From Caballeronia sp. (GTDB taxonomy: Bacteria; Pseudomonadota; Gammaproteobacteria; Burkholderiales; Burkholderiaceae), in NCBI RefSeq assembly GCF_028292365.1, contig NZ_JAQGMM010000258.1, positions 1 through 34,917 on the forward strand: 34,917 nt of DNA. Reading direction: 5' to 3'. The notes beneath the pieces were generated by a model. It was not told the origin of the DNA. It searched no databases and saw only the letters and a list, made by a program, of their open reading frames with translations. Positions 2,865-32,664 of the stretch are shown piece by piece. Numbering within the stretch: position 1 is the stretch's first letter; the number at the start of each line of letters is the position of its first letter. The translations under genes were made by a program, and so were the position numbers.

Positions 2865-2913
2865 AATATAGGTGATTGGGTCAGCCAAAGACAATTGGAC
2901 TTTGGTCCCATAG
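2865..2913 (-). promoter_or_regulatory. Palindromic box A with -10, driving the 2798-1795 gene pair
   Basis: Read on the minus strand, the box at 2892-2913 has left arm CTATGGGACC, spacer AA and right arm AGTCCAATTG. Its centre is 2902.5. The hexamer TATATT (2865-2870) is centred 35 bp downstream and matches the sigma-70 -10 at five of six bases. Predicted transcription start is near 2858, about 60 bases before the ATG at 2798. It is one of eight such promoters in the window. The geometry is read directly; the activator role is inferred. Confidence 0.7.
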
Positions 2914-2952
2914 GCGGCTGATGCGCACGCCGAGCGGCGCCTGCCACGTTGA

Positions 2953-3960
2953 TCAGCTGGATTCAGGCCGGACCTTGCCCCGAAACACCCAGTACACGCC
3001 GGCGGTATAGATCGCGATTACGGGCAGCACGACCACGCCTCCGTAGAACAGGAACTGCAGCGACGCCTCTGGCGCCGCGGCGCTGCCCACGGTGATGGAA
3101 TAGGGGACCATGTACGGCCAGAACATCACGCCGAGGGTCAGGTAGGAGGTCAGCACGAACAACACCGTCAGCGCAAACGCCAATCCGTCGCGACGCGTCC
3201 GGGCGCCCATGGCGACGCCGCCCAAGGCCGCGATTGCGGCGACTGGGAAAACGATTCCCCAAGGACGATCACGCAGGTGGCTCTGCGCCACAGCGCCCGC
3301 ATCGATGGTCAGCGACACGGTGAAAGCCAGCCCCAACATGACGAATACGATCGCGGCGAGCCAGCCAATGCGCTTGTAAGCCCAGTCCCGCAACTCGCCC
3401 TCGCTCTTGAGGACAATCCAGCCCGCGCCGAGCAGCGCATAGCCGAACACCAGGCCGATACCCGTCAGCACCGAAAACGGACGCAACCACTCGAACGACG
3501 TGCCTGCAAACTGTTCGTTCACCACCGGGATGCCGCGCATCAGCGCGCCCACCGCCGCGCCCTGGACGAAGGCGACCACGGTCGAGCCGAGGAAGAAGCC
3601 CGCGTCCCAGAGCCAGCGCATCCGCACGCTGCGGTAGCGGAACTCGAATGCGATGCCGCGAAAGATCAGGCCGACGAGCAGCAGCAGTATCGGCAGGTAG
3701 AAGGCGCCCATGAACACCGCATAGACGACCGGGAAGGTCGCGAACAGACCCGCACCGACGACAACCAGCCAGGTCTCGTTGCCATCCCAGAAAGGCGCGA
3801 TGGTGTTCATCATGCGCAGCCTCTGGTCTTCGTCAACCGTGCTGCCGAACAGGATGCCGACGCCGAGGTCCAGGCCGTCCAGTATCACGTAGACCAGGAT
3901 GGAGATCGCGATGACGGCGGCCCAAAAGAGCGCCAGGTTGCTGGGTTGCAGCGCGCTCAT
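2953..3960 (-). CDS. cydB: Cytochrome bd-type (cyanide-insensitive) quinol oxidase subunit II
   Basis: A 335-aa inner-membrane protein of the CydB/CioB family. The N-terminal helix contains VYVILDGLDLGVG, the signature GxDLGVG region of subunit II, followed by MMNTIAPFWDGNETWLV, the conserved WDGNE(T/V)WLV segment. About eight more hydrophobic helices follow. With CydA it forms the quinol oxidase that reduces oxygen to water at low oxygen tension or when haem-copper oxidases are inhibited. The ATG overlaps the stop of cydA by four bases (ATGA), so the two are translationally coupled. No small CydX-like frame is obvious between its stop and the next gene. Identification is secure. Confidence 0.95.
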   Translation of the reverse strand: MSALQPSNLALFWAAVIAISILVYVILDGLDLGVGILFGSTVDEDQRLRMMNTIAPFWDGNETWLVVVGAGLFATFPVVYAVFMGAFYLPILLLLVGLIFRGIAFEFRYRSVRMRWLWDAGFFLGSTVVAFVQGAAVGALMRGIPVVNEQFAGTSFEWLRPFSVLTGIGLVFGYALLGAGWIVLKSEGELRDWAYKRIGWLAAIVFVMLGLAFTVSLTIDAGAVAQSHLRDRPWGIVFPVAAIAALGGVAMGARTRRDGLAFALTVLFVLTSYLTLGVMFWPYMVPYSITVGSAAAPEASLQFLFYGGVVVLPVIAIYTAGVYWVFRGKVRPESS

Positions 3961-5366: not shown

Positions 5367-5379
5367 GCGTGCTCCCCGC

Positions 5380-5627: not shown

Positions 5628-5663
5628 TGTTCGCCGCGTTACACCCCGCGCGTGTCTCGCCCT

Positions 5664-6470: not shown

Positions 6471-6485
6471 GAGTACCTCTTCCGT

Positions 6486-7352
6486 TCACTGGACTTGTAC
6501 AGTTCCTTTTCCGTTTTCCGGCGCCGGACGCATTTGCGTAGGATCCATAGGCTCCGGCCGTTCAAACGGGATTCGCCTGGCTCCATTGTCATTGCTGGAC
6601 ACCAGCGGGTCAGAGGGGAAATCTGCACCAATGGCCCAGTTGGAAAGTTCGAGTACGTGGCGCAACCGGACGGGATCGTTCAAGTAAATTGCATAGATCC
6701 GGCGAGGGAGATTATCAACTTGGCCGATCCAGATTTGCACGAATACGTCGCCGGTGACATACGCCACGATGTCCGTAGTCGTATCGCCCACTACTCCCGA
6801 TTGGCCGACGTAAAACGCCGTTTTCAATCCCTTTGCAATGTCAGCGTAGGGGTCGGCGACAATGACGTCGGCAAAAGGAAAGTAGATGGATGCGGTGTCA
6901 TAAGCTGCCTTCAACGTGGCGTCGATCGTCGTTGGTGCGTTGGCAGAAGCAATGAGATTTTGCCCTGGCTCGTAAGCCACCATCGTCTTGCCATCGTAGT
7001 AGAACTCGGAACTCGGCCCGTCGCCCACTGTGATTACTTTCAGTTTGTCCGGTCGTTGCACCATCACTTCCGATCTCGTTGAGTAGATAAGAGGAGGTCC
7101 CAGCCGGCTCGGACTTTCATAAGAGACAACGGCAGTGAAGGCCATGGATTGCGCCGATGCAAGCACCGCGCTTGACGCTTTTAGTATGGCGATTGCGCGG
7201 GGCTCGAGCCCGGGCTGAAAATCCATTGATTTTGCGGCGGTTGGCGCTTTCGACGATGTGTGATGGGCCTGCTGTGCGCCGACGGCTTGAGCGACGAGCG
7301 CCAACGCTGCAACGACGATAAATTTCGTGTACCTCGAATACCCATAGCGCAT
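6486..7352 (-). CDS. DUF2092 family predicted periplasmic protein
   Basis: A 288-aa protein with a signal peptide ending at VGA before QQAHHTSS. The body matches DUF2092: an N-terminal AIAILKASSAVLASAQSMAF, then RSEVMVQRPDKLKVIT, EFYYDGKTMVAYEP, ATLKAAYDTASIYFPFADVI and a C-terminal VDNLPRRIYAIYLNDP. The family is thought to have a LolA/LppX-like half-barrel fold that could carry a lipid or other hydrophobic ligand. That role is inferred from fold similarity only. GAGG lies six bases before the ATG. It sits 50 bases after the gene at 7403-7702 and 15 bases before the YG-rich gene, so all three probably form one transcript from promoter B. Confidence 0.82.
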   Translation of the reverse strand: MRYGYSRYTKFIVVAALALVAQAVGAQQAHHTSSKAPTAAKSMDFQPGLEPRAIAILKASSAVLASAQSMAFTAVVSYESPSRLGPPLIYSTRSEVMVQRPDKLKVITVGDGPSSEFYYDGKTMVAYEPGQNLIASANAPTTIDATLKAAYDTASIYFPFADVIVADPYADIAKGLKTAFYVGQSGVVGDTTTDIVAYVTGDVFVQIWIGQVDNLPRRIYAIYLNDPVRLRHVLELSNWAIGADFPSDPLVSSNDNGARRIPFERPEPMDPTQMRPAPENGKGTVQVQ

Positions 7353-7402
7353 TGCAGCCTCAGCATTGTTCGTTCGAGCGTCTTACTACGGCCGAAGTGT
7401 CG

Positions 7403-7702
7403 TCACGGCATCATGCCGCACTCGAACATCTTGTTGGCTACCGGGGCGGCGACTCTATCGATGAAAGCCGCGCGCATTTGTGCATTGGCTCGTAGCATCT
7501 GCACCGCTTCCTGTTCCCGTTGCGGCTTTGGGCGGCCCTGCTGCGCGGTTTTTTCCGCCCACAGTTGCTCACAGGAGGATTGCTGGTACTTTTGGATGAC
7601 CTTGTCGGCGACGGCATCCACAACGGGAAATTGTGCGAGCGCCGCACGTGAGCAGAGAAGCGCAGCCACGACGGCGAAACTCAACAGACGCTTTGTCATC
7701 AT
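7403..7702 (-). CDS. Small exported protein with CxxL...C pair, unknown function
   Basis: About 99 aa: a signal peptide (MMTKRLLSFAVVAALLCSRA, cut after ALA) and a short mature protein beginning QFPVVDAVADKVIQKYQQSSC. Two mature cysteines, in SSCEQLW and FECGMMP at the very end, could form one disulphide. The middle is charged and helical (REQEAVQMLRANAQMRAAFIDRV). I do not recognise a named family. The start could be either of two adjacent ATGs (7702 or 7699); a GAG-type site is better placed for the second. The frame opens further upstream to 7750, but that would bury the signal peptide. It is the first gene after promoter B and leads the probable operon with DUF2092 and the YG-rich protein. 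Confidence 0.65.
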   Translation of the reverse strand: MMTKRLLSFAVVAALLCSRAALAQFPVVDAVADKVIQKYQQSSCEQLWAEKTAQQGRPKPQREQEAVQMLRANAQMRAAFIDRVAAPVANKMFECGMMP

Positions 7703-7829
7703 GATCTCGATGAGAAGTAGTATCGATGGGGCCGGAGCTTGCAGCCTCAACGCTGATTCCGGTTCAGGGCGGTCTTCACCTGCTCAACATACGGTCTCAG
7801 TCAAGAGGCCACACCAGGACATTGAGTTC

Positions 7830-7877
7830 AGCTTACGGGAATAGGCTAACGTCGCCTATGGGACCTTGGTCCAACGG
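7830..7877 (-). promoter_or_regulatory. Palindromic box B with -10, driving the 7702-5664 operon
   Basis: The box at 7856-7877 reads, on the plus strand, left arm CTATGGGACC, spacer TT, right arm GGTCCAACGG, centre 7866.5. On the minus strand the hexamer TAAGCT (7830-7835) is centred 34 bp downstream. Predicted start is near 7823, leaving a leader of about 120 bases to the ATG at 7702. It lies just past the stop of the gene at 7894-8178, so it cannot serve that gene. Confidence 0.6.
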
Positions 7878-7893
7878 CAAGTCGGGCAGGGCG

Positions 7894-8178
7894 TTAATTG
7901 CAACCCTGATTGGCAGCGGTTCTGACACAGGTTTTCCCGCTGGGACTGGTGTACACGCCTTTTCCATTCTTGGATTTAGACTTTCCGCCGTTGCTGGTTT
8001 GTGCGGTTGTCACGCCGTTTTGATTTTTGTTTGCCGTCCAGGCAGTGCCGCGATTAGGGTTATAGCCAGCCGCCGCCTGCCCGTTGTTGCATACTTCGCG
8101 ACCCGTTGCGGTGGTCCTGCACTCTGCAAACGCGTGGATCGAAAAGCCAAGGCATGCAATTGCAATAAGAGTTTTCAT
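7894..8178 (-). CDS. Small secreted Cys-containing protein, unknown function
   Basis: A 94-aa protein with a clear signal peptide (MKTLIAIACLGFSIHAFA) and a mature part of about 76 residues starting ECRTTATGREVCNNG. Four mature cysteines (ECR, EVC, KTC and QGC) suggest two disulphides. Between them is an Asn/Gly/Lys-rich stretch (NGGKSKSKNGKG) that looks flexible. The start has AGGGGAA six bases upstream. No named domain is recognised. It stands alone on the minus strand with a long upstream region holding box C, which points at it. Confidence 0.68.
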   Translation of the reverse strand: MKTLIAIACLGFSIHAFAECRTTATGREVCNNGQAAAGYNPNRGTAWTANKNQNGVTTAQTSNGGKSKSKNGKGVYTSPSGKTCVRTAANQGCN

Positions 8179-8357
8179 GACTTTCCCCTGACCGCCGCGC
8201 GCAGACGATAAAAATTGCCGGCAACTTGGACGAATGATCAATATTCGCTTTCCACGCTTTCCACGCTTTGCATGCCGCTTAGATCGACGGCAGCCGAAGC
8301 CGAGCACAACCTCTCGACTGTCTGATTCCTGCGTCGACAAATAGGTGGCCAGAACTA

Positions 8358-8405
8358 AGCCTAGGACAGAAATGGAGAGGTTGCTATTGGACCTTGGTCC
8401 AACGT
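8358..8405 (-). promoter_or_regulatory. Palindromic box C with -10, driving the small Cys protein
   Basis: The box at 8384-8405 reads, on the plus strand, left arm CTATTGGACC, spacer TT, right arm GGTCCAACGT, centre 8394.5. On the minus strand the hexamer TAGGCT (8358-8363) is centred 34 bp downstream. The predicted leader to the ATG at 8178 is long, about 170 bases. Confidence 0.58.
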
Positions 8406-8523
8406 CGACAATGAATTGCCTTGTCACGGTCCGTTCGAATTCAGCGCGGCCATCCGTCTGATCTGCTGACGCGATCGCCGCGCAGAGCGTTGCTTCGACT
8501 CGGTCACCTGCTGACATGGCGTG

Positions 8524-8571
8524 CTATGGGACCAAGGTCCGATAGCGGTCAGGGACAATCATAAATATGCT
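8524..8571 (+). promoter_or_regulatory. Palindromic box D with -10, driving the outer-membrane gene at 8690
   Basis: The box at 8524-8545 has left arm CTATGGGACC, spacer AA and right arm GGTCCGATAG, centre 8534.5. The hexamer TATGCT (8566-8571) is centred 34 bp downstream. The predicted start is near 8578, about 110 bases before the ATG at 8690. Confidence 0.62.
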
Positions 8572-8689
8572 AACGGCGAGCGTTGTGAGAGGCTTCGCGA
8601 ACGATGACCAGGCAAGCGAGCGAAGTCAATGAAAGGTCTTAATCGATCTGAGCGAAGGGTCTGATGGTCCGCTGGTAACTACTCTAATC

Positions 8690-9604
8690 ATGCGAAAAAC
8701 TGACTGGGTGCGCCGCCTGAGCGGATTTCTTTTCGCTCTATGGTCCTCGGTCGTAACCGCTCAAGAACTGGAACCGCGCAGCTATTCAGCCGTTCCCGTC
8801 GGAACGAATTTTGTGGTCGCCACTTATGCCCGGTCGACTGGCGATATCCTCTTCGACCCATCGCTTCCGGTGACAGATCTTCACGCCGGCATCAATACCT
8901 ATTCACTTGGCTATTCACACAGCTTCGGTTTATTCGATCATGTCGCCAGCATCGCTTTGCTTGCGCCTTACGCGAATGCCAACGTGACGGGTAACGTCGA
9001 GGGCGCGCCCGGCCATGTTTATAGATCGGGGGCCGGGGATGTGCACTTCAGGTTTGCCGTTGACCTTCTCGGCGGGCCCGCGCTCGACCCGATCGAATTC
9101 GCCCGGCGCACCCCCGGCACGATTGTTGGAGCGAGCCTGAGTGTCATTGCGCCGACGGGACAGTACCTGCCGTCACGCCTCATCAATGTGGGAGCCAATC
9201 GCTGGTCGTTCAAACCTGAGATCGGCGTGTCTCACCCTATTGGTGATTGGTTCGTCGAAGGTGCGGCGGGGGTTTGGTTCTTTACGGATAACCCAGACTA
9301 TTTCGGTCACCACAATCGTAGCCAGGACCCATTGCCCGTCTTTCAGTGGCACGTTGGTTACAACTGGCGGCCGGGGTTATGGCTCGCCGCGGACGCCACC
9401 TATTTCCTGGGTGGCCAAACCAGTATTAATGGCGTTCCAGATCGCGATTTGCAGCGCAACATCCGATACGGACTCACACTTTCGTTTCCCCTTTCCGCAC
9501 AGTGGTCTGGAAAGCTCGCGTGGTCGCGTGGGCTTACCACCACTATCGGAGGCGACTTCCAGACCATCACCGTCGCGCTTCAGTATCGATGGTTTAATCA
9601 TTGA
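8690..9604 (+). CDS. Outer-membrane beta-barrel protein, MetA-pathway phenol-degradation/SphY-like transporter family
   Basis: A 304-aa protein with a signal peptide ending at VTA before QELEPRSYSAVPVGTNFV. The opening ELEPRxYSxxPVGTNF and the alternating aromatic/polar strands throughout (GINTYSLGYSHSFGL, WSFKPEIGVSHPI, FQWHVGYNWRPGLWLAADATYF, IRYGLTLSFPL) match the Phenol_MetA_deg-like outer-membrane family (COG4313). A short aromatic end (LQYRWFNH) fits a barrel terminus. Members are thought to admit hydrophobic substrates, but this protein's substrate cannot be told. The ribosome site is weak. It is monocistronic, converging on the DUF4239 gene 23 bases away, and is the likely target of box D. 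Confidence 0.75.
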   Translation: MRKTDWVRRLSGFLFALWSSVVTAQELEPRSYSAVPVGTNFVVATYARSTGDILFDPSLPVTDLHAGINTYSLGYSHSFGLFDHVASIALLAPYANANVTGNVEGAPGHVYRSGAGDVHFRFAVDLLGGPALDPIEFARRTPGTIVGASLSVIAPTGQYLPSRLINVGANRWSFKPEIGVSHPIGDWFVEGAAGVWFFTDNPDYFGHHNRSQDPLPVFQWHVGYNWRPGLWLAADATYFLGGQTSINGVPDRDLQRNIRYGLTLSFPLSAQWSGKLAWSRGLTTTIGGDFQTITVALQYRWFNH

Positions 9605-9627
9605 TATCGACACTCATCTTTTAGCGG

Positions 9628-13236: not shown

Positions 13237-13284
13237 AAATTAGGCTCAACGCACGCGCTTAGCTATTGGACCTTGGTCCCATAT
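13237..13284 (-). promoter_or_regulatory. Palindromic box E with -10, driving the 836-aa secreted protein
   Basis: The box at 13263-13284 reads, on the plus strand, left arm CTATTGGACC, spacer TT, right arm GGTCCCATAT, centre 13273.5. On the minus strand the hexamer TAATTT (13237-13242) is centred 34 bp downstream. The predicted start is near 13230 with a leader of about 157 bases. The kinase gene on the other side is about 400 bases away, so this box is assigned to the leftward gene. Confidence 0.65.
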
Positions 13285-13653: not shown

Positions 13654-13681
13654 TCCCAATATTGCTGAGGGAGCACAGGTC

Positions 13682-15193
13682 ATGACCGTGTTCGCAGTGT
13701 GCGGGGCCGTTATATTTATCGTACTACTTAGCTTCGTTAAGATCAGACGTCTCGTACCCGAAGGCGCACCTAACGATTTAGCGAGCCATCTTCAGCGGTT
13801 GAAGCCGGCGCCCAACAACTATGTCTTCGCATACGAAGGTGGCGGCATGGACGCCGACCCGGCTTTCAACATGCGATCAGAATGTGCCGATTTACGTCAG
13901 GCAGCCAGTTTCCGGAAGCCTTGGGAAGCGGGCCGATCATTCATTCGAGTGCGCTTCCGAAGATTCAAGTCCCAGCGTTTGCTCCGGACTCAGTTAAGCG
14001 GGGATCCGCCAAAGCATCCAGACAAGATCTGGTCAGATTCGCCCACACCGGGGCGTAACGAAGCGCGGCCGCTAAACGACGGTGATCCATTTAGTTGCGC
14101 GCTCGACCTGCTGCCGCTCGCCGTCATCGTGGCCGATCCGAATGGAGAAATAGTCTTCGTGAATGTTGCAGCCGGAGAACTGTTCGGCTATCCGGTCGAG
14201 GAGCTGATTGGTTCAAACACCATTAAGTTGGGTGACGCATTGAAATCCCCATGGCCTTTCGCTGACTCGCTATTCGATGCGACAGGACGCCATGCTGAGG
14301 GCGAGAAGAGCGTGCGAGAGGTCGTCGCTATTCGAAAGGACGGCGTCGAGTTTCCGGTCGAAATATCGGTCAAGCACATTTTGGGACCTACCGGAGCGTA
14401 TTCGTTGTCGATCGTCATGGACCGGACGGAGCGCAACGAGTTGGCACGTCACCGGCAACAACTTGCTCACCTCACGCGTGTTTCGACCTTGGGCGAGCTT
14501 GCCGGGTCTCTCGCTCACGAGCTAAATCAGCCGCTTACCGCGATCCTCAGTAACGCGCAGGCGGCACAACGTTTCTTGACGGCGGAGCCTGTCAATCTTG
14601 TGGAAGTGCGGGAGATACTCCACGATCTTGTACAGGACACCCACCGTGCAAGTGAAGTAATTAAGAGAATCCGCGCACTTGTAAAAAAAGGCGAGATCGA
14701 GACCGCGCCCCTTAGCGTGGCGAGTGTGATCAGGGACGTGGTAGTACTTGTACACAGCGATGCAATCGTGCGCGGTATCCGGGTCGTGGTGATTGCCGCG
14801 CCCGAATTGCCCCCCGTGCAGGGAGACAGGGTTCAACTTCAACAGGTCGTTCTGAACTTGCTGCTCAATGCTTTTGATGCAATGGAAAACTGTTCGTTAC
14901 CTGGGCGCGTGGTCTCGATCCAAAGTTCGGTTGATCCTTCGGGAGAGATTCGTATTGCGGTGCGGGATGGCGGAACAGGCATTTCGGGCGACAGGGTTTC
15001 CAGGTTATTTACGCCTTTCTGTACGTCCAAGCGAGATGGGCTCGGTCTGGGGTTATCAATCAGCCGGTCCATAGTGCAGATGCATGGCGGTCGAATTTGG
15101 GCCGAAAACAACAATGACCGGGGCGCTACGTTTTACTTCACGTTGCCCATTGGCATACCGCCAGGAAGCGCCTCTTCAAGGGTGACGCCATGA
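13682..15193 (+). CDS. FixL-like PAS sensor histidine kinase
   Basis: A 503-aa kinase. Residues 1-19 form one hydrophobic helix, about 20-135 are a basic linker, and 140-250 are a PAS domain (LPLAVIVADPNGEIVFVNVA, ELFGYPVEELIG, VAIRKDGVEFPVEIS). Residues 265-300 are a FixL/DctB-type dimerisation helix with the phospho-accepting H279 in AHELNQPLTA. The catalytic domain follows with N box LNLLLNAFDAM (391-401), RDGGTGI (428-434), TPFCTSK and GLGLGLSI (453-460). The PAS resembles FixL, but where FixL has its haem histidine (RHDSY region) this protein has PFADSLF, so haem oxygen sensing is not supported. The stop overlaps the ATG of the response regulator by four bases, so they are partners. GAGGGAGC precedes the start. 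Confidence 0.9.
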   Translation: MTVFAVCGAVIFIVLLSFVKIRRLVPEGAPNDLASHLQRLKPAPNNYVFAYEGGGMDADPAFNMRSECADLRQAASFRKPWEAGRSFIRVRFRRFKSQRLLRTQLSGDPPKHPDKIWSDSPTPGRNEARPLNDGDPFSCALDLLPLAVIVADPNGEIVFVNVAAGELFGYPVEELIGSNTIKLGDALKSPWPFADSLFDATGRHAEGEKSVREVVAIRKDGVEFPVEISVKHILGPTGAYSLSIVMDRTERNELARHRQQLAHLTRVSTLGELAGSLAHELNQPLTAILSNAQAAQRFLTAEPVNLVEVREILHDLVQDTHRASEVIKRIRALVKKGEIETAPLSVASVIRDVVVLVHSDAIVRGIRVVVIAAPELPPVQGDRVQLQQVVLNLLLNAFDAMENCSLPGRVVSIQSSVDPSGEIRIAVRDGGTGISGDRVSRLFTPFCTSKRDGLGLGLSISRSIVQMHGGRIWAENNNDRGATFYFTLPIGIPPGSASSRVTP

Positions 15194-15831
15194 GTTCGTC
15201 CAGCCTTGCCACTGTTTTCGTGGTTGACGATGACGAATCGATTTGCCGGGCGCTTGGCCGGCTGATTCGCGCTGCAGGTCATGTTGTAGCGTGCTTCGGC
15301 TCCGCGCAAACTTTCCTGAGCGCAGACGTGCGTACTGCGGGCACGGCGTGTCTTGTATTAGACGTGGGACTGCCGGATATCAATGGCCTCGAGCTGCAAC
15401 GCGAAATGAATGCGGCCGGGAAAGCGATGCCAATTATCTTCTTGACGGGACAGGGCGACATCGCAATGACGGTTCGCGCCATGAAAGCCGGGGCGACCGA
15501 CTTTCTGTCGAAGCCAGTGAACGAAACGGATCTTTTGCGCGCGATCGATCTTGCGCTCCAGCGCTCATCGTACGAGCTATCGCGCCGTTCGGAACTCGAC
15601 GCAATCCGGACGCGGATGTCACTGCTTACGCCACGTGAGCGCCAGGTTCTCACACTGCTGGTCAAGGGACGCATGAACAAGCAGGTGGCATGCGAATTGG
15701 GCATCGCTGAGAAGACCATTAAAGTGCACCGGGCCCGCGTCATGGAAAAAATGGCTACCCGCTCGTTGGTCGAGCTCGTCAGGGTCACCGACAAAGTCCC
15801 CACGCTTTCTGCCTCGCCGTCAATATCCTGA
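15190..15831 (+). CDS. FixJ/NarL-family response regulator with LuxR-type HTH
   Basis: A 213-aa regulator. The receiver has the acidic pocket D13-D15, phospho-acceptor D58 in LVLDVGLP, T86 in FLTGQG and K108 in SKPV. The C-terminal GerE/LuxR helix-turn-helix begins LTPRERQVLTLLVKG (146-160), with the recognition region around AEKTIKVHRARVMEKM (173-188). Family members bind short inverted repeats as dimers and usually activate. It is cotranslated with the kinase (ATGA overlap). It is the only FixJ/LuxR-type regulator found in the window, and palindromic boxes lie on both sides of its operon. It is therefore my first candidate for the protein that binds them; that link is inferred. Confidence 0.93.
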   Translation: MSSSSLATVFVVDDDESICRALGRLIRAAGHVVACFGSAQTFLSADVRTAGTACLVLDVGLPDINGLELQREMNAAGKAMPIIFLTGQGDIAMTVRAMKAGATDFLSKPVNETDLLRAIDLALQRSSYELSRRSELDAIRTRMSLLTPRERQVLTLLVKGRMNKQVACELGIAEKTIKVHRARVMEKMATRSLVELVRVTDKVPTLSASPSIS

Positions 15832-15878
15832 CGGCTGCGGATACGCATCGTACGTGACCCGGCGCACCCTCAGTGTCT

Positions 15879-15927
15879 GGTATGGGACCAAGGTCCCATA
15901 CCACTGACCTTCCGAATACCTTAACCT
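15879..15927 (+). promoter_or_regulatory. Palindromic box F (best copy) with -10, driving the stand-alone receiver
   Basis: Perfect 11-bp arms GGTATGGGACC and GGTCCCATACC flank spacer AA, centre 15890.5, the most symmetric of the eight boxes. The hexamer TAACCT (15922-15927) is centred 34 bp downstream. The predicted start near 15934 gives a 55-base leader to the ATG at 15989. It lies 48 bases after the stop of the response regulator gene. Confidence 0.72.
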
Positions 15928-15988: not shown

Positions 15989-16372
15989 ATGAGCCAAATC
16001 AAACCGTTCGTCGCCGTAGTGGATGACGACGATTCGGTGAGTCGCGCCATCAAGCGATTACTCCGATCAGGCGGATTCGAGGCCGAGACCTTCAAGACAG
16101 GTGACGATTTTCTTCTCATGTTTGACTCCATACCGTCGTATCGGCCAGTGTGTCTTGTGCTCGACGTTCAAATGCCTGGCTCGAACGGACTTGAAGTGCA
16201 AAGGAGAATATCGGGCAGCGGCATACCCGTGGTCTTTATTACGGCACACGATGAAAGCGGCGTTCGGGAGCAGGCTTTGCTTGCCGGGGCGACCGCCTAT
16301 CTACGCAAGCCTTTCAACGACGAGCTTTTGATCAAAGCTATTCGTACAGCAATTAGTACAACTGGTAAATGA
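15989..16372 (+). CDS. Single-domain response regulator (receiver only)
   Basis: A 127-aa CheY-like protein consisting of one receiver and nothing else. It has the acidic cluster VVDDDDSV near residues 12-15, phospho-acceptor D59 in LVLDVQMPG, T85 in FITAHD and K107 in RKPF. The pocket is intact, so it should be phosphorylatable. With no output domain it may act as a phosphate sink, a competitor for the neighbouring kinase, or a partner-binding switch. Its sequence is closest in style to FixJ-type receivers. Box F lies 87 bases upstream, so it probably belongs to the regulon and could provide feedback on the kinase/regulator pair. That wiring is inference. Confidence 0.9.
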   Translation: MSQIKPFVAVVDDDDSVSRAIKRLLRSGGFEAETFKTGDDFLLMFDSIPSYRPVCLVLDVQMPGSNGLEVQRRISGSGIPVVFITAHDESGVREQALLAGATAYLRKPFNDELLIKAIRTAISTTGK

Positions 16373-16406: not shown

Positions 16407-16454
16407 CTATGGGACCAAGGTCCAATAGCACGGGCGAAGCGGCAATCGCATCAT
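16407..16454 (+). promoter_or_regulatory. Palindromic box G with weak -10, driving the SYLF lipoprotein and following genes
   Basis: The box at 16407-16428 has left arm CTATGGGACC, spacer AA and right arm GGTCCAATAG, centre 16417.5. At 34 bp downstream lies CATCAT (16449-16454), four of six matches to TATAAT but lacking the first T. The predicted start near 16461 gives a leader of about 66 bases to the ATG at 16527. A 9-bp direct repeat GATGTCGGT (16371-16379 and 16388-16396) lies just upstream. Confidence 0.62.
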
Positions 16455-16526
16455 TGTTCTGTCCGAGAGGATATGAGGCCTTGGAATGAAGCAATTCTTG
16501 ACGTCACTTACAACGGAGCATTGATC

Positions 16527-17084
16527 ATGATTAGAACCCTTCGGCTTCTTTTGGCAATTCCTCTTTTCCTCCTCGCGGTGGGTTGCTCGACAGACCCGAC
16601 CGTCGCCAATGGCGGAGATCCTGAGCTCGACGCGCAAGCACGCCAGGCATTGCAACAACTGTTCAGCAATGCCCCACGTGCACAGGAACTTCAATACCGG
16701 GCCAAGGCCGTTCTGGTCTTTCCCAGTATCGTCAAGGCAGGTCTGCTTGTAGGTGCCCAAGGCGGCAAGGGCGTGATGTTTAGTCCGGATGGAAAGATCA
16801 TTGGTTATTACAGGGTGCGCGGATTGTCATACGGCCTCCAGGCCGGCGGGCAGACATACTCGGAAGCGCTGTTTCTGATGACAGACGCGGCGATTAGTTC
16901 CGTCAGCAGTGGTACGGGCTTATCCGTGGGCATGGGGCCGAGCGTGGTAGTGGTGGATGCCGGCGTGGCGAGGTCGATGACCACAGAGACGCTTAAATCC
17001 GATGTCTACGCGATGATCTTCGGTCAGGAGGGCTTGATGGCCGGTCTCGGCGTTCAAGGACAGCGGATCGTCAAATTCGAGTGA
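16527..17084 (+). CDS. SYLF (Ysc84-type) domain lipoprotein
   Basis: A 185-aa lipoprotein: signal MIRTLRLLLAIPLFLLAVGC with the lipidated cysteine at 20. The mature protein is a SYLF domain, recognised from YRAKAVLVFPSIVKAGLLVG, then AQGGKGVMF, YYRVRGLSYGLQAGGQTYSEALFLMTD, a GTGLSVGMGPSVVVVDAG stretch and the end EGLMAGLGVQGQRIVKF. SYLF domains bind lipids in other organisms, and bacterial members are small envelope lipoproteins whose role is unclear. The ATG at 16527 has GGAG nine bases upstream and gives a proper lipobox; the earlier in-frame ATG at 16473 would spoil it. It is the first gene after box G. The glycine-zipper and ADFDGSKP genes follow on the same strand. Confidence 0.85.
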   Translation: MIRTLRLLLAIPLFLLAVGCSTDPTVANGGDPELDAQARQALQQLFSNAPRAQELQYRAKAVLVFPSIVKAGLLVGAQGGKGVMFSPDGKIIGYYRVRGLSYGLQAGGQTYSEALFLMTDAAISSVSSGTGLSVGMGPSVVVVDAGVARSMTTETLKSDVYAMIFGQEGLMAGLGVQGQRIVKFE

Positions 17085-17250
17085 TGTCGTTTGACAGGTT
17101 GAAGGGATCCCGTTGCAGTGCCCGTATCAAGGCACCGTCTTGCGCAGGGAATCGCTCGGGAGGTTTGTGTGCATCGATCTGCGCCACCTTCCGGGCGCCG
17201 GCAATCGTTGGACCGGTTGAAGCTAAAACTTTCAAAGAAGGTGCCGAGCC

Positions 17251-17727: not shown

Positions 17728-17759
17728 GGGACGCTCAGGGCGCATACCGGAGACCAACG

Positions 17760-18158: not shown

Positions 18159-18226
18159 CAATCCGGTAGCCCGGACTTTGCGTGGCGTTTTTTATCCGGG
18201 AGCCGGTTGCCCAATGGGAGACTCAC

Positions 18227-19504: not shown

Positions 19505-19517
19505 GCGGATTGGCGAA

Positions 19518-22754: not shown

Positions 22755-22755
22755 C

Positions 22756-25496: not shown

Positions 25497-27117
25497 GCCA
25501 CTTGGGCCCCCCGGGGAACCGGATAGCCCCGATTTCCCGGAGGCGGTCGCGGTGCGCCGTTCGCGCTGGCGCGTTCAGCTTATCTGGCTGGTACCGCTCA
25601 TCGCGATATTGATTGGTGGCTGGCTCGCCGTGCAGTCGATTCTCGAAAAAGGTCCGACCGTCACCATCAGCTTTCAGAACGCCGATGGCCTGGAGGCCGG
25701 CAAGACGAAAATCAAGTTCAAGAATGTGGACGTCGGCGTGATCAAGAAGGTCGCGCTGGCGCCGGATGACAAGTCAGTGATCGCCACGGCCGAAATGTCG
25801 CGCGACGCCTCGAAAATGCTGGTGGACGACACCCGTTTCTGGGTCGTGCGCCCGCGTATTTCGGGTGGCACGGTGTCCGGCATCGGTACACTGTTGTCGG
25901 GCTCGTACGTGGGTGTGGACATCGGCACGAAGACAGAGAAACGCACTGATTTCGTCGGCCTCGAGTCGCCGCCCGTATTCGCATCCGGCGTGGCCGGCCG
26001 CGAGTTCATACTCAAGAGCGAGAACATGGGCTCGCTCGATGTGGGCTCACCCATATTCTTCCGGCGACTGCAGGTCGGCCAGGTTACTTCCTATGCGCTT
26101 GACCCCGACGGCGAAGGCATGACGCTGCATGTCTTCGTCAACGCCCCGTACGATAAATACGTGACCAACGACACCCGCTTCTGGCACGCAAGCGGCGTCG
26201 ACGTCACGCTCGATACGACTGGCGTCAAGGTCAACACGGAGTCGCTCGTGTCGATCCTGATTGGCGGGTTGGCGTTTCAAAGCCCTCCCGATACGGTTGA
26301 TAAGACGGAAGCCGCTGCGCACAGCGAATTCACGCTGTTCGAAGAACGGGCTGAGGCCATGAAGCGGCATGACACCATCGTCGACACTTATGTGATGAAC
26401 TTCAAGGAATCGGTGCGCGGCTTGACGGTCGGCGCGCCGGTGGATTTCCGCGGCATCGTGGTGGGCGAAGTCTCTGCGATCTATACGCGCTTTGACAAGG
26501 TGACAAAGGAGTTCAGTATTCCGGTCGAGCTGCGCCTCTTTCCAGGGCGCTTCACGTCGCGCTTCGAGAAGGGCGGCGGCGGTGGACGCATTGCTACGGA
26601 TCGGCAGGCCTTTACTAACTACCTGGTCGCGCACGGACTGCGCGGTCAACTGAAAACCGGCAGCCTGTTGACGGGTCAGCTCTATGTGTCCGTCGACTTT
26701 TTCCCTGCCGCGCCCAAAGCGACCATCGACTGGAGCAGGAGCCCGCCCGAATTGCCGACCGTGCCGGGCAATCTGCAGGGGCTGCAGGATTCGATCACCA
26801 GTCTGGTCGCCAAGCTCAACAAAATACCGTTCGAAGGTATCGGCCAGGACCTGCGCAAGACCTTGGGCGATGCATCGGCCTTGCTGACTACGCTCAATAC
26901 ACAAGTGGCGCCCGAAGCGCGTGCCACGCTGGCGGCCGCCCACGATGCGCTCGTGTCCGCCAACAGCACACTGCAACCCGACTCAGCGCTGGCGCAAAGC
27001 ACGGTCGACACGATGCGGGAGCTGTCGCGCACCGCGGCGTCCTTCCGCGCGCTCGCCGACTATCTCGAACGGCATCCCGAAGCGCTGATTCGCGGCAAGA
27101 CGGAGGATAAAAAATGA
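25489..27117 (+). CDS. pqiB: PqiB-type MCE protein with three MCE domains
   Basis: A 542-aa protein, the length of E. coli PqiB. After a short Pro-rich cytoplasmic end and one membrane helix (VQLIWLVPLIAILIGGWLAV), three MCE domains follow: about 44-145 (VTISFQNADGLEAGKTKIKF), 165-265 (EFILKSENMGSLDVGSPIFF) and 298-410 (YVMNFKESVRGLTVGAPVDF). The C-terminal region (LQDSITSLVAKLNKIPFEGI onward) is the long helical tail that stacks into a periplasmic tube in this family. It is anchored in the inner membrane and spans the periplasm to carry lipid. It overlaps pqiA by eight bases and pqiC by four, so the three are cotranslated. Confidence 0.94.
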   Translation: MNKPLGPPGEPDSPDFPEAVAVRRSRWRVQLIWLVPLIAILIGGWLAVQSILEKGPTVTISFQNADGLEAGKTKIKFKNVDVGVIKKVALAPDDKSVIATAEMSRDASKMLVDDTRFWVVRPRISGGTVSGIGTLLSGSYVGVDIGTKTEKRTDFVGLESPPVFASGVAGREFILKSENMGSLDVGSPIFFRRLQVGQVTSYALDPDGEGMTLHVFVNAPYDKYVTNDTRFWHASGVDVTLDTTGVKVNTESLVSILIGGLAFQSPPDTVDKTEAAAHSEFTLFEERAEAMKRHDTIVDTYVMNFKESVRGLTVGAPVDFRGIVVGEVSAIYTRFDKVTKEFSIPVELRLFPGRFTSRFEKGGGGGRIATDRQAFTNYLVAHGLRGQLKTGSLLTGQLYVSVDFFPAAPKATIDWSRSPPELPTVPGNLQGLQDSITSLVAKLNKIPFEGIGQDLRKTLGDASALLTTLNTQVAPEARATLAAAHDALVSANSTLQPDSALAQSTVDTMRELSRTAASFRALADYLERHPEALIRGKTEDKK

Positions 27118-27701
27118 ATAATGCGCTCCGATTCATGCTGGCGACGCTGTTGTTCATCAGCGGATGTGCCAGTACACCGAAGGCCACCTTCTACACGCTG
27201 ACGCCACAGACGCCGCAGGCGCACCCGGACGCGCGCTCGCCCATCGCCGTTGCCATCACGATCGGCAACGTCAGCGTGCCGGACCTCGTCGATCGCCCGC
27301 AACTGGTAACGAGAGTCGACGCAACAACGGTCTCCATTGACGAGTTTGCGCGTTGGGCGGATCCGCTCAAGAGCCAGGTGCGCCGGGTCCTGACCACAGA
27401 CCTGGCGTTGCAATTCCCCGGGGCACTGGTATCCGGAAGTCCGCAAAATGCCGATCTGGCGATGACCTTCCTGGTGTCGCTGGATATCCAGAGCTTCGAA
27501 TCGGTGCCGGGCGATTCAGCGTCGATCGCTGTGCTGTGGTCCGTGCGGACACCGAAGGGGAAGTCGGCGAGCGGTTACAGGCTCGTCCGTGAGCCGACCA
27601 GCGGTGCAGGCGACGATGCACTCGTAGCCGCGCATAGCCGGGCGCTTGCGGCCGTAAGCGCTGATATCGCCACGGCGATCCGCTCGAACCTTCAACCCTG
27701 A
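27114..27701 (+). CDS. pqiC: PqiC-type lipoprotein (ABC-type transport auxiliary family)
   Basis: A 195-aa outer-membrane-type lipoprotein. The signal peptide ends LLFISGC with the lipid-bearing cysteine at 18, followed by ASTPKATFYTLTP, the typical start of the PqiC/YmbA (DUF330) group. RWADPLKSQVRRVLTTDLA, VSLDIQSFESVPGDSASIAV, LWSVR and a C-terminal helix with AHSRALAAVSADIATAI complete the domain. It is thought to receive the distal end of the PqiB tube at the outer membrane. The ATG overlaps the pqiB stop (ATGA). It closes the apparent pqiABC set; the antiporter gene follows after 16 bases. Confidence 0.92.
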   Translation: MNNALRFMLATLLFISGCASTPKATFYTLTPQTPQAHPDARSPIAVAITIGNVSVPDLVDRPQLVTRVDATTVSIDEFARWADPLKSQVRRVLTTDLALQFPGALVSGSPQNADLAMTFLVSLDIQSFESVPGDSASIAVLWSVRTPKGKSASGYRLVREPTSGAGDDALVAAHSRALAAVSADIATAIRSNLQP

Positions 27702-27717
27702 AACGGCGGCCATCGCG

Positions 27718-28893
27718 ATGGAGCAGATGCTGGTCGACGTGGTGATCTTTCTCGCTGCGGCGCTGATCGCGGTGCCGCTATCGGTCCGGCTGGGCTTTGG
27801 CGCCGTGCTCGGTTACCTGCTCGCGGGCGTGGCTATCGGCCCTTGGGTGCTGAAACTTGTCACTGACGTCGACGCCATCCTCCACTTCGCGGAATTGGGC
27901 ATCGTATTGATGATGTTCGTGATCGGCCTGGAAATGCGGATCGACAAGCTATGGGCGATCCGCCACACCATCTTCGGCTATGGCGGCGGCCAGATGGCGC
28001 TGTGCGCGTTTGTGCTGACCGCCGTTTTCCTGCTGTTGGGCACGCCGTGGCGCATTGCGCTGACAGGCGGCCTTGCGTTGGCTTTGTCGTCGACGGCGAT
28101 GGTCATCGCCGAGCTTCAGGCGCGCCACCTCATGGAGACGCCAGCGGGAAGGGCTGGCTTCGGCATACTGCTGTTCCAGGACATGGCGGCCATTCCGCTG
28201 ATTGCGCTACTGCCGCTGCTTGGGCCTACGGTCGCCAACGACGCAGCCGATCCCGGCTGGCTGGTCTCCCTGAAAGCGCTGGCGATGCTCGCCGCCATCG
28301 TTCTGGCGGGGCACTTCCTGCTGCGCTTTGTCCTTCGGGCGGTCGCGCGCACCGGTGTGCCGGAAATGCTGACCGCGTTCGCACTGCTCTGGGTGGTAGG
28401 GGTCGCCTTGCTCATGCAAGGCGTCGGGCTGTCCATGTCATTGGGTGCATTCGTTGCGGGCATGCTGCTCGCGGACTCCGAATTCCGTCACGAGGTGGAA
28501 ACCGATATTGCGCCCTTCAAGGGACTGCTTCTGGGTCTTTTCTTCATCGCGGTGGGGATGTCGATCGACTTCGGGGTATTGGCGCGCGAACCCGGACGCG
28601 TCGTTGCGCTGGTCGTCGCGCTCGTTGGCATCAAGGCGGTGGCGTTGTGGTGCCTGGCGGGCAGGTTCAACGTGCCGACCGGGCAACGCGCGTATTTTGC
28701 ATTGCTGTTGTCGCAAGGCGGAGAGTTCGCGTTCGTCGTGCTGGCGGCCTCGCTGGCTGCGCGCGTGATCGATCAGCGCCTGTCTTCGCTTGTCACGTTG
28801 GTCGTCACGTTGTCGATGGTCACGACGCCGCTGCTTTTGCTTGCGCATCAGCGATTTCGAGCGTCGCGTTCCAGCGAAGATCTGACGACTTAG
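27718..28893 (+). CDS. CPA2-family cation/proton antiporter, membrane domain only
   Basis: A 391-aa KefB/KefC-like antiporter with about twelve hydrophobic helices. Recognisable segments are [64 protein letters not shown], with the conserved acidic residue in [39 protein letters not shown] and [16 protein letters not shown]. coli KefB/KefC carry a C-terminal TrkA-N/RCK domain of about 200 residues; here the protein stops just after the membrane part ([15 protein letters not shown]). A stand-alone membrane-domain CPA2 exchanger is possible. An RCK domain occurs on the separate channel gene at 31490-32581. Transported ion (K+ or Na+) is not determined. Confidence 0.88.
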
Positions 28894-28957
28894 GGCGAAG
28901 CTACGTCCGCCCCTCGGTTGGCATAACAGCTTGACGCATAAAGGCGGACCACGCATC

Positions 28958-30172
28958 GTGATCACCAGCACGTTTCGAAAGGCGGCCGACGGCATGGCCG
29001 AGTTCCTGAAGCTCGAGTCGGCCGGTGGACTGCTGCTTGTCGCCGCTGCCGTACTCGCGTTGATGTGCAGCAACACGGCGCTTCGCTCGGCCTACGACGC
29101 CCTGTTAAATATTCCAGTCGAGGCGCGCTTTGGATCGTTCGCTATCGCGAAGCCGCTGCTCTTGTGGATCAACGACGGCCTGATGGCCATCTTCTTTCTG
29201 CTCGTCGGGCTGGAGGTCAAGCGTGAAGTGATCGAGGGTGAGCTTTCGACGCCCGCGCAGGTGGTGCTGCCGGTCGTTGCCGGCTTGGGCGGCATGATCA
29301 CGCCGGCGTTGATCTACGTGTTCTTGAACCGCAATGATGGACCGGCACTGAGCGGCTGGGCCATTCCCACCGCCACCGACATTGCTTTTGCGCTCGGTGT
29401 CCTGTCGTTGCTCGGCAAGCGGGTTCCGGTCTCGCTGAAAATTTTCCTGACCGCGGTAGCGATAGCCGACGACCTGGGCGCGATCGTCATCATTGCGCTC
29501 TTCTACACCGCCGAGCTTTCCGTCACGATGCTGTATCTGGCCGCAGGGGCCATTGCGGTGCTGATAGCCCTGAACCGGCTGAAGGTCACACGCATTGCGC
29601 CCTACATCATCGTTGGCGTGTTCCTGTGGGTATTCGTCCTCAAGTCGGGTGTACACGCGACGCTGGCGGGCGTGGCCATTGCGTTTGCCGTGCCCTTGAA
29701 GACGGTTGATAACGCGGGGCATGCACCGCTGCATCGGCTTGAACATACCCTCCATCCCTGGGTCGCCTTCGGCATCTTGCCGCTTTTCGCTTTTGCCAAT
29801 GCGGGTGTTTCGTTCGCTGGCGTGACCCTGGGTGTCCTTGCGGAGCCATTGCCGCTCGGCATCGCCATCGGCCTGTTTGTCGGCAAGCTGGTGGGCGTCT
29901 GCGGCGCGAGCGCAATCCTGATCCGGATGGGCGCGGCCAAACTTCCCGATGGCGCCAGCTGGAGCCAGTTGATCGGGGTCGGCGCATTGTGTGGCGTGGG
30001 CTTCACCATGAGCTTGTTCATCGGTTCGCTCGCATTCGAAGGCCCGGAATATTTCACGCCGCTGCGTCTGGGTGTGATAGTCGGCTCGACGCTATCCGGT
30101 GTGACCGGCTATCTGCTGCTCAGGTTCGCATCGGCTCGGCCTGGAACAAGCCCATTGCCCGGCGCTGACTAG
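28958..30172 (+). CDS. nhaA: NhaA-type Na+/H+ antiporter
   Basis: A 404-aa NhaA. Helix IV keeps the aspartate in [17 protein letters not shown], and helix V keeps the paired ion-binding aspartates in [36 protein letters not shown] and [18 protein letters not shown] are further signatures. It extrudes sodium using proton import and helps pH and salt balance. The start was set at GTG 28958 because AAGGCGGA lies about nine bases before it and the following [17 protein letters not shown] fits family N termini. An in-frame TTG at 28931 has no ribosome site. It follows the CPA2 gene by 64 bases, probably in the same transcript. Confidence 0.95.
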
Positions 30173-30196
30173 TCTCATGAACGGGAGAACAGAACT

Positions 30197-31396
30197 GTGG
30201 CGCTGAACACGCTGGAAACGCTGATGGTTGCGTCCCTGGTTCTCCTGCTCGGGAGAAAGATCATTGCCCGTGTTTCTTTCCTGCGAACCTACAGCATCCC
30301 TGAACCCGTGGTCGGCGGACTGCTCGTCGCCGTATTAGTACTGGTGGCGCGCAGCACCCTGCACGTCGAACTCCGATTCGATACAACGCTCCAGACGCCG
30401 CTGATGTTGACGTTTTTTGCGACCATCGGACTCAACGCCGATCTGGCCGGCTTGAAAGCGGGCGGGCGTTCGCTTGCTGTATTCCTTGGCGTGGTGGTCG
30501 GTTTGCTTGTGATGCAAAACGTGCTTGGCATCGGGCTCGCATGGGCGCTGGGGCAGGATCGTCTGGTCGGCTTGCTGGGAGGCTCGGTCACGCTATCGGG
30601 AGGCCACGGCACCGGTGCAGCGTGGGCGAAGGTATTCTCCGAACGGCACGGGATAGCATCAGCGACAGAAATTGCCATTGCCTGTGCCACCTTCGGTTTG
30701 ATACTTGGCGGTCTGGTCGGCGGACCGGTCGCGCACTTCCTCATCACGCGCCACGGCCTTGCTGCCAGGACAGAACCCAGTGGGACGGACATGACCGGGT
30801 TCGAACAGCCCAAGGCTGTCCGCCCGATCACAGCGGACGCGCTCATCGAAACCGTTGCGCTGATCGCCGTATGCCTCGCGGTCGGCTCCACGCTGGAGTC
30901 GGGCCTTAACGGAACGGCGTTTGAGCTGCCGGCATTTGTCTGTGTCCTGTTCGTCGGCGTGGTCCTTCGAAACGGACTGGCGATGTCCGGACACTATCGG
31001 GTCTTCGAAGCTGAAGTGTCACTGCTCGGCAATGTGAGTCTCGGGCTGTTCCTTGCCATTGCATTGATGAGCCTGCGATTGTGGGACCTCACCACCCTGG
31101 CATTGCCTTTACTCGGCATCCTGTTCATACAGGCGCTGGCGATGGCGTTCTACGCGATCTTCGTCACGTTCCGGGTGATGGGGCGCAACTACGATGCGGC
31201 GGTACTTGCCGCGGGGCATTGCGGATTTGGCCTGGGCGCCACGCCAACGGCGATCGCCAACATGCAGGCGATCACGGACCGCTTCGGTCCGTCTCATCTG
31301 GCGTTCCTGATAGTGCCTATGGTAGGCGCATTTTTTATCGACATTGCCAATGCAATCGTGATCAAGCTGTTCCTGTTGTTGCCCATCTACGGGTAG
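30197..31396 (+). CDS. gltS: Sodium/glutamate symporter
   Basis: A 399-aa GltS-family transporter with inverted-repeat topology. Signatures are SIPEPVVGGLLVA near the start, FFATIGLNADLAGLKAGG, the re-entrant GGSVTLSGGHGTGAAWAKVF, and its counterpart in the second half, AAGHCGFGLGATPTAIANMQ. It imports glutamate with sodium. The start is GTG with GGGAG ten bases upstream. Beside NhaA the logic may be sodium recycling: GltS brings sodium in, NhaA sends it out. Glutamate is also the counter-ion accumulated with potassium during osmotic stress, which fits the nearby potassium channels. That physiological link is inference. Confidence 0.93.
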   Translation: MALNTLETLMVASLVLLLGRKIIARVSFLRTYSIPEPVVGGLLVAVLVLVARSTLHVELRFDTTLQTPLMLTFFATIGLNADLAGLKAGGRSLAVFLGVVVGLLVMQNVLGIGLAWALGQDRLVGLLGGSVTLSGGHGTGAAWAKVFSERHGIASATEIAIACATFGLILGGLVGGPVAHFLITRHGLAARTEPSGTDMTGFEQPKAVRPITADALIETVALIAVCLAVGSTLESGLNGTAFELPAFVCVLFVGVVLRNGLAMSGHYRVFEAEVSLLGNVSLGLFLAIALMSLRLWDLTTLALPLLGILFIQALAMAFYAIFVTFRVMGRNYDAAVLAAGHCGFGLGATPTAIANMQAITDRFGPSHLAFLIVPMVGAFFIDIANAIVIKLFLLLPIYG

Positions 31397-31489
31397 TGAC
31401 AGCGCACCATATAGTCGCGCAGGAGAACCGCTCGCCGGGCACGGGGCCATGGTTGTGGCGAGCGTGATCGTTGTCCCAAGGAGACCCGC

Positions 31490-32581
31490 ATGCGCTTCGA
31501 ACGCGGAAGGTCGTACCGGTTACGGTTCTCACGGCTTAAGCGTTCGCACTGGCATGCGCCGCGTACACGGACGTTGTTCACGCGTCCGGCCGCACCGCCC
31601 CGACGGGTTCTGTTGATCCGCCTGGGTGTAGTGGTCGGTTTGTGCGTACTCGCCTTCGCCGTGCTGTATCTCGACCGCAAGGGCTTGCACGATGCGACCA
31701 AGGAAACGCTCGGCGTGATCGATCTGATGTACTTCACGATGGTCACCGTGGCGACGGTAGGATACGGCGACATCGTGCCCGTCACGGCGCGCGCGCGCCT
31801 GATCGACGCTTTTGTCGTCGTCCCGATCCGGATCGTCATCTGGTTTGTCTTTCTTGGAACAGCCTATCAATTCGTCATCCAGCGCGCTATTGAGGAGGTT
31901 CGCATGAAACGCTTGCAAAAGCGGCTGCAGGACCACGTTGTCGTATGCGGCTTTGGGCTTAGCGGCTCAGTTGCAGTGCGCGAACTGCTGGAAAGCGGCT
32001 TTGATCCCGATTCGATCATCGTCATCGACCCTCAACAAGCGGCGCTCGAAAACGCCACGGCTCTTGGCGTGGCGGGTTTGCTCGGCGACCCGTCGCGTGA
32101 GGACATCTTGCAGCAGGCAAAAGTGCGCCATGCAAAGGCCGTCATCGTCACGGTGGCGGATGATGCGACCGCTATTCTGCTTACCCTGAGTATCCGGAGC
32201 ATTGCGCCGGACACGAAGATTGTCGTGCGCATCCGGGAACATCTGTTTCAACGACAACTGCGGCAGGCGGGGGCGGATGTGATCGTCTCGTCAACCAAGA
32301 TTGGTGGCCTGCTGCTTGCCGATGCGGTGGAAAGCCGCTACATCGTTCCGCTCGTCAACGACCTGCTCTCGGCGCGAGGACGCGTCAATCTCCTCGAGCG
32401 GTCCGCCAAACCCGAAGAAGTCGGGCGCTCGTCGAACGAGATTACCGGTTTGCTCGTCGTCGCACTGGTCCACGAAGGCCGGATGTTCTCTTTCTATGAT
32501 GAACCACCGCGCACGATAGAGGGCGGCGACATACTGATTGTGATGGAGTCCAATCGATCCCGGCGTGCTGAACAGGCATGA
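31490..32581 (+). CDS. Two-helix potassium channel with RCK (TrkA-N/TrkA-C) domain
   Basis: A 363-aa channel. A basic N terminus is followed by helix one (about 40-60), a pore loop with selectivity filter TVATVGYGD (86-94), and helix two (about 108-130). A Rossmann-type RCK domain then begins HVVVCGFGLSG (G154-x-G156-x-x-G159), and a TrkA-C-like end follows (EEVGRSSNEITGLLVVALVH, EGGDILIVM). The architecture is that of MthK and of the YugO/Kch-like channels, gated by a cytoplasmic ligand. AAGGAGA lies seven bases before the ATG. It lies 93 bases after gltS on the same strand. Confidence 0.92.
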   Translation: MRFERGRSYRLRFSRLKRSHWHAPRTRTLFTRPAAPPRRVLLIRLGVVVGLCVLAFAVLYLDRKGLHDATKETLGVIDLMYFTMVTVATVGYGDIVPVTARARLIDAFVVVPIRIVIWFVFLGTAYQFVIQRAIEEVRMKRLQKRLQDHVVVCGFGLSGSVAVRELLESGFDPDSIIVIDPQQAALENATALGVAGLLGDPSREDILQQAKVRHAKAVIVTVADDATAILLTLSIRSIAPDTKIVVRIREHLFQRQLRQAGADVIVSSTKIGGLLLADAVESRYIVPLVNDLLSARGRVNLLERSAKPEEVGRSSNEITGLLVVALVHEGRMFSFYDEPPRTIEGGDILIVMESNRSRRAEQA

Positions 32582-32616
32582 CCTTGTTGTCAGTGAGGCG
32601 CACCTGTGCGCTATCG

Positions 32617-32664
32617 CTATGGGACCAAAGTCCAATAGCAAGTCACGCTGACTGAAATTAAGCT
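32617..32664 (+). promoter_or_regulatory. Palindromic box H with -10, driving the exported protein at 32732
   Basis: The box at 32617-32638 has left arm CTATGGGACC, spacer AA and right arm AGTCCAATAG, centre 32627.5. The hexamer TAAGCT (32659-32664), the same as at box B, is centred 34 bp downstream. The predicted start near 32671 gives a leader of about 61 bases to the ATG at 32732. This copy is over 16 kb from the main group. Confidence 0.66.

Follow-up and report, generated by a model that had tools for sequence, protein, structure and literature searches.

A stretch of 34,917 nucleotides from Caballeronia sp., called the window here, carries eight copies of a palindromic box, each with a -10-like hexamer at a near-fixed distance, and the question raised by this locus is which protein reads the box and to what effect. 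To our knowledge, the operator is known for few FixJ-type regulators. We propose, from what can be read in the sequence, that the candidate regulator is a FixJ-type response regulator (RR) coded at 15190-15831 in the window itself, a point that is new with respect to the first-pass annotation in which the boxes were described.

Results

The eight boxes and the genes behind them

The window is the entire contig C192 of genome G000 (8.1 Mb). Scanning it with TATNGGACCNNGGTCCNATA at up to 2 mismatches gave 8 matches, exactly the eight palindromes of the first-pass annotation, each of which was located by sequence check where it had been placed (Table 1), and raising the limit to 4 mismatches added one further match, at 10100. 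Genome-wide, the pattern at up to 2 mismatches has 11 matches and the reversed pattern 1, and 8 of the 11 are on the window's 35-kb contig.

The annotation had also held that no box lies inside a gene, which is true only after the genes have been judged, since 5 of the 8 boxes touch a mechanical ORF of at least 90 aa: box 2892 touches ORFs 2292-2894 and 2606-2947, box 7856 touches ORF 7726-8211 (+), box 8384 touches ORF 7894-8517, box 16407 touches ORF 16407-16760 (-) and box 32617 touches ORF 32291-32686 (-). ORFs 2292-2894 and 7894-8517 likely start internally, at signal-peptide methionines near 2798 and 8178, so that the box would be upstream of the gene in both cases. ORF 2606-2947 has no Pfam match, and the remaining three ORFs over boxes, antisense or overlapping frames, are in our judgement spurious.

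Table 1. Boxes, their putative targets and the two-component genes of the window
Feature	Position	Strand	Remarks
Box 1	2892..2913	-	20-bp pattern from 2893; -10-like TATATT 2865..2870 (-), 35 bp from palindrome centre
Gly-zipper protein ORF, box 1 target, leftward	2292-2894		likely start ~2798
Small secreted protein, box 1 target, leftward	start 2193		presumed same operon
CLC channel, box 1 target, leftward	259-1761		presumed same operon
Box 2	7856..7877	-	pattern from 7857; -10-like TAAGCT 7830..7835 (-), 34 bp
Small secreted protein ORF, box 2 target	7403-7750		likely start ~7702
DUF2092 gene, box 2 target	6486-7352		follows the small secreted protein
Box 3	8384..8405	-	pattern from 8385; -10-like TAGGCT 8358..8363 (-), 34 bp
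Small secreted protein, box 3 target	start 8178
Box 4	8524..8545	+	pattern from 8525; -10-like TATGCT 8566..8571 (+), 34 bp
Outer-membrane-type protein (Phenol_MetA_deg), box 4 target	8690-9604
Box 5	13263..13284	-	pattern from 13264; -10-like TAATTT 13237..13242 (-), 34 bp
836-aa exported protein, box 5 target	10563-13073	-	box and gene order kept in G002, G008
Sensor histidine kinase (PAS, HisKA, HATPase_c)	13682..15193	+
FixJ-type response regulator (RR; REC + GerE)	15190..15831	+	proposed box binder
Box 6	15879..15902	+	pattern from 15881; -10-like TAACCT 15922..15927 (+), 34 bp
Lone receiver gene, box 6 target	15989..16372	+
Box 7	16407..16428	+	pattern from 16408; -10-like CATCAT 16449..16454 (+), 34 bp
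SYLF/Ysc84 lipoprotein, box 7 target	16527..17084	+	likely start 16527
Box 8	32617..32638	+	pattern from 32618; -10-like TAAGCT 32659..32664 (+), 34 bp
Exported protein, box 8 target	32732-33346

The first genes behind the boxes look exported in 7 of 8 cases (N-termini read by eye in the translations), and the eighth codes for a lone receiver (REC) and is flanked by boxes 6 and 7. The Gly-zipper matches of ORF 2292-2894 are under the curated cut-off. Box 7 probably also drives the downstream RND, PqiA/MlaD, Na+/H+ antiporter, GltS and K+-channel genes, and from the gene order we infer that its control may extend over all genes from 16527 to 32581. By Pfam, the transporters of the window are a CLC channel, cytochrome bd subunits I and II, a bestrophin, an RND system, a PqiA/MlaD/ABC-type lipoprotein, two Na+/H+ antiporters, GltS and two K+-type channels. 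The 836-aa exported protein matches nothing in Pfam or NCBIfam at E 0.001; its C-terminus is Gly/Tyr/Asn-rich and Gln-rich, and it is found at 74% identity in two relatives. The genes at 1795-2193 (-) and 17760-18158 (+) code for two members of a small exported family with the motif FDGSKPL.CAT, which has no Pfam match and is repeatedly found close to boxes in relatives.

Elsewhere in the same genome, L066:7819-8241 (G000:C71) is likely a ninth promoter of the regulon, with a similar site in G002 and G008, and is followed by an exported protein that we take to be BON/OsmY-like from the resemblance of its translation. The odd box in the conserved DNA of G000:C71, G002:C36 and G008:C131 was also considered as a mobile repeat, and this was rejected, as it precedes the exported protein and has CAGATT at offset 21. 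A possible tenth site is found at G000:C73:2684-2730 (-), with 3 mismatches over box and hexamer, and two weak box sites at C235:10985 and C437:19968.

Promoter geometry

The distances described for the hexamers were recovered, with 34 bp from the palindrome centre in seven boxes and 35 bp in one (2893, TATATT). The transcription starts predicted here agree with the eight of the annotation to within 1 nt and lie about 55-173 nt ahead of a plausible start codon in 8 of 8 cases.

The same geometry was seen in relatives. We collected 45 distinct sites at no more than 3 mismatches from the 26 scanned family loci and the named loci and gave them the orientation of the RR gene; many are orthologous and so not independent. 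Of these sites, 43 have A at +23 and 42 have T at +27, while +22 is T in 24 and C in 20. These three positions form the downstream information peak, a sigma-70-like -10 hexamer, and lesser peaks are present at +1, +2 and +19. An orientation-free test covered 130 distinct sites at up to 2 mismatches (123 A/T-centred, 7 with another centre; sites near a locus end dropped), in loci fetched by box or RR and never by hexamer. The sequence [CT]A...T was present exactly 21 bp downstream of the box, on at least one side, in 93 of the 123 A/T-centred boxes, compared with 1-13 of 123 at each of the 19 other offsets from 12 to 31, and in 1 of the 7 boxes with a non-A/T centre. In two places of one genome (G016:C103:10333-10406 and G016:C141:3947-4020) a hexamer is found at offset 21 on both sides, and one box seems to serve divergent promoters.

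A hexamer 21 bp beyond a 20-bp box puts the box centre near -43.5, as for an activator overlapping the -35 region. A class II-type site would have a fixed position against the transcription start, next to -35; what was observed is the fixed distance to the -10 hexamer, from which the starts are predicted. No TTGACA-like -35 was evident in the box sites inspected. The overlap with -35 would by itself be compatible with repression as well, the RR blocking polymerase from the palindrome. However, rigid spacing between site and -10 is typical of activator-dependent promoters, whereas repressors tolerate variable spacing, and the 21-bp distance kept in 93 of 123 sites with no evident -35 makes a repressor unlikely. 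The comparative data, in which the box-hexamer distance holds at additional sites, favour the activator-type site and unnamed regulon that the annotation had suggested.

Identity of the response regulator and kinase

The RR has the REC and GerE domains of the NarL/FixJ type (PF00072, E 3.7e-25; PF00196, E 1.7e-21). FixL-FixJ is the best NCBIfam match for both the RR and the kinase, and the domain order of the RR is alike, but neither reaches the family cut-off: the RR scores 200.5 against 255 bits for FixJ proper (NCBIfam NF006900) and the kinase 222.4 against 850 for FixL. The nearest solved relatives of the kinase are chimeras with a FixL kinase core, and the nearest solved relative of the RR is StyR (1yio, E 1.1e-51), with DosR at E 2.8e-15.

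Co-occurrence of the box and the regulator

Another regulator, encoded elsewhere, could bind the box, with the two-component genes merely among its targets. With the RR as query, G000 gives 89 matches at E 1e-3, among them lone receivers and further proteins with a receiver domain; most genomes searched in this way hold paralogues of the RR at about 45% identity, and the binding of the RR to the box is itself a prediction. Across 398 family genomes, the box (up to 1 mismatch) was present in 40, an RR orthologue (E up to 1e-60) in 41 and both in 24. The box is thus found in 24 of 41 RR-positive and 16 of 357 RR-negative genomes (Fisher 2.3e-17, a type of value that overstates independence because the genomes are related), and where at least two boxes are present the RR is found in 17 of 20 genomes. 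The box is almost absent from 398 phylum-wide genomes: 4 genomes besides the window's own carry one at up to 1 mismatch, and none of these boxes is A/T-centred, which corresponds to background.

The near-perfect box is absent from 17 of the 41 RR-positive genomes, a point in favour of another regulator; some of these carry diverged boxes. Two (G015, G298) have no box even by the composite pattern of box and hexamer, and in G014 this pattern has a single match, by count no more than its reversed control. Among the 16 genomes that have the box and no RR orthologue, 12 carry a more distant RR whose helix reads EKTIK (G084, G141, G149, G205, G216, G221, G227, G270, G286, G319, G387, G408), and no EKTIK regulator was found among the RR matches examined in the other four (G034, G259, G302, G392). 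In G302, G392 and G034 the boxes are without hexamer, and G259 has a perfect box with hexamers. Thirteen of the 16 belong to genus group g32, where the EKTIK type is present in 12 of 13. As a control, g32 genomes without box or close RR were inspected, and 5 of 16 hold an EKTIK regulator among the matches examined, which weakens this one, secondary, supporting point; two of these five (G185, G049) have 3-mismatch boxes beside the regulator.

The arrangement around the RR gene was compared at up to 4 mismatches in 26 of the 48 family RR loci (L001-L003, L007, L100-L121). Two boxes 507-574 bp apart are found behind the RR in 19 of the 26, one box in L007 and L104, and none in L105, L106, L108, L111 and L116. 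Both the box-receiver-box and the box-exported-protein arrangements of the window recur in G008 and G002. In G010 and G014 the RR locus is without a box, and a diverged box is located 87-120 bp ahead of a receiver gene elsewhere. In four loci (L052, L063, L064, L067) the neighbour of the kinase and RR is a gene of roughly 1620 codons in place of a receiver, and in G016 genes like cytochrome bd are near boxes.

Distant carriers

A search from an alignment of the RR with 30 of the 41 family orthologues having a match gave at least 80 loci of RR relatives. In the 80 listed loci (1.31 Mb), 19 boxes at up to 2 mismatches were counted, compared with 2 matches to the reversed pattern; 10 of the boxes and none of the reversed matches lie no more than 300 bp downstream of the RR match. 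The carriers of this RR-adjacent box are Caballeronia (2), Paraburkholderia (2), two Bacillota MAGs, a Desulfobacterales MAG, the delta-proteobacterium NaphS2, a Muproteobacteria MAG and an Acidobacteria MAG, that is, six loci outside Burkholderiaceae among the matches listed; several are MAG contigs, for which misbinning is conceivable. A receiver gene comes next in the Bacillota (L138, L156) and Muproteobacteria (L154) MAGs. NaphS2 (L141) has DUF2092, a domain also present behind box 2 of the window, and then a receiver; in the Desulfobacterales MAG (L139) a universal stress protein is next, and no receiver is among the called ORFs of the Acidobacteria MAG (L167). Desulfoferrodoxin and pyruvate:ferredoxin oxidoreductase are coded downstream in L138. 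Whole-genome scans of 20 genomes behind the listed RR loci found boxes in 13 and none in 7, with 19 boxes against 0 in the control in a Rokubacteria MAG (L150, G418).

The recognition helix and known operators

Two regulators with known operators were used for comparison. The DosR (DevR) box of mycobacteria is TTSGGGACTWWAGTCCCSAA (PMC2275270), and DosR contacts bases through Lys179, Lys182 and Asn183 (PMC4082495). StyR, TodT and TutB bind ATAAACN4GTTTAT, read through Lys175, Val176 and His179 (PMC5874301). The DosR box is the closest known operator, a 20-bp palindrome with an A/T centre and a GGAC/GTCC core equally far from the centre, and it differs in the outer arms (TTS, TAT here) and the inner base (T, C here). 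DosR is, like the proposed binder, a LuxR/GerE-type RR, and in alignment coordinates K175, K178 and V179 of the window RR are paired with 179, 182 and 183 of chain 3c3w (DosR). Two of the three contact residues reported there and the GGAC core therefore match and the remainder differs, residue 183 being Asn in DosR and Val here. Membership of the DosR family was rejected, the whole RR being far from DosR.

The StyR operator is also palindromic, with AC at the same place of the half-site, but has AA before AC where GG is found here, and StyR is the closest solved RR. StyR Val172 and His179 correspond to K175 and A182 in the window RR, so that of the reported contacts Lys and Val are kept (K178, V179) and His is replaced by A182. 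An ordinary StyR/TodT system was rejected, since operator and helix are both different. None of the five RR relatives with StyR-like helices (L128, L136, L145, L152, L175) has such a box at the thresholds of the helix test described below.

For this test, positions 175, 178, 179 and 182 were chosen beforehand from DosR and StyR and compared with box presence (at most 3 mismatches close to the RR, or at most 2 at any place in the locus) in the 80 listed relatives, three of whose translations contain a stop and were kept. The box is present in 13 of 24 RRs with both K175 and K178 and in 1 of 56 others (Fisher 9e-8). When 8 Burkholderia-group and Cupriavidus loci are removed, the counts are 9 of 18 and 0 of 54 (Fisher 6e-7). 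At the thresholds used, 11 of the 24 K175+K178 regulators have no box, and the lone exception on the other side, L126 (P. caledonica), has a 3-mismatch box and Q at 175. The extra lysine K175 (179 in DosR; Val172 in StyR) may be what selects GG before AC.

Discussion

In our reading, the box probably serves a class of FixJ-type regulators as an operator that is new to the literature, and the promoter geometry that goes with it is rigid. A text search of the literature for exact core strings (AAAG-type core aside), judged by title and mostly confined to literature outside subscription, found no bacterial paper, and in further literature searches no title pointed to such an operator. We consider it likely, and say so with good confidence, that TATnGGACC-WW-GGTCCnATA is the operator of the FixJ/StyR-type RR 15190-15831, which would act as an activator at these promoters. 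Binding of the box by another regulator seems improbable to us: box presence tracks the RR orthologue across the 398 family genomes, box and RR gene stay linked in distant carriers too, and a correlation with the RR's own recognition helix would be unexpected for a bystander.

In the mechanism that we propose for the RR as activator, the kinase 13682-15193 would phosphorylate the RR, and an RR dimer would bind both half-sites, centred at about -43.5. Contact of the bound RR with sigma-70 RNA polymerase across the poor -35 region would then activate transcription at the -10 hexamer (TAnnCT or CAnnnT), which lies 21 bp past the 20-bp box. Genes whose products are exported or membrane-bound would be turned on in this way (efflux, ion transport, lipid handling, small secreted proteins), and with them the lone receiver, a possible phosphate sink that may act back on the system. 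The Burkholderia lxa low-oxygen locus was considered as a lead.

That the palindromes are instead RNA hairpins or dispersed REP-like repeats and no operator is hardly credible: they are indeed palindromic, repeated and mostly intergenic, but most of the information outside the box falls on the hexamer (smaller peaks are at +1, +2 and +19), the copies are few and promoter-linked, and palindromes upstream of the -10 are not transcribed from that promoter. An RNA element was likewise rejected, as there is no Rfam match at gathering scores in the box loci L050 and L066 and the palindrome is upstream of the -10.

More tentatively, and with the scales tipped slightly against it, it is possible that the K175/K178 FixJ-type RRs form an ancient specificity class that has kept GGACC-WW-GGTCC close behind the RR gene across several phyla, often before a lone receiver, and that, together with DosR and StyR, they reflect a code in which GG or AA before AC follows one helix residue (Lys, or Val/Met). 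If true, this relation between helix and operator could be used to assign operators to uncharacterised regulators.

In the case discussed here, the sequence shows the candidate regulator, its putative operator, the promoter geometry and the predicted targets, and comparable pairs are met again in distant bacteria. In Caballeronia, the proposed regulon would bring efflux and ion transport together with functionally uncharacterised exported proteins under one FixJ-type RR.
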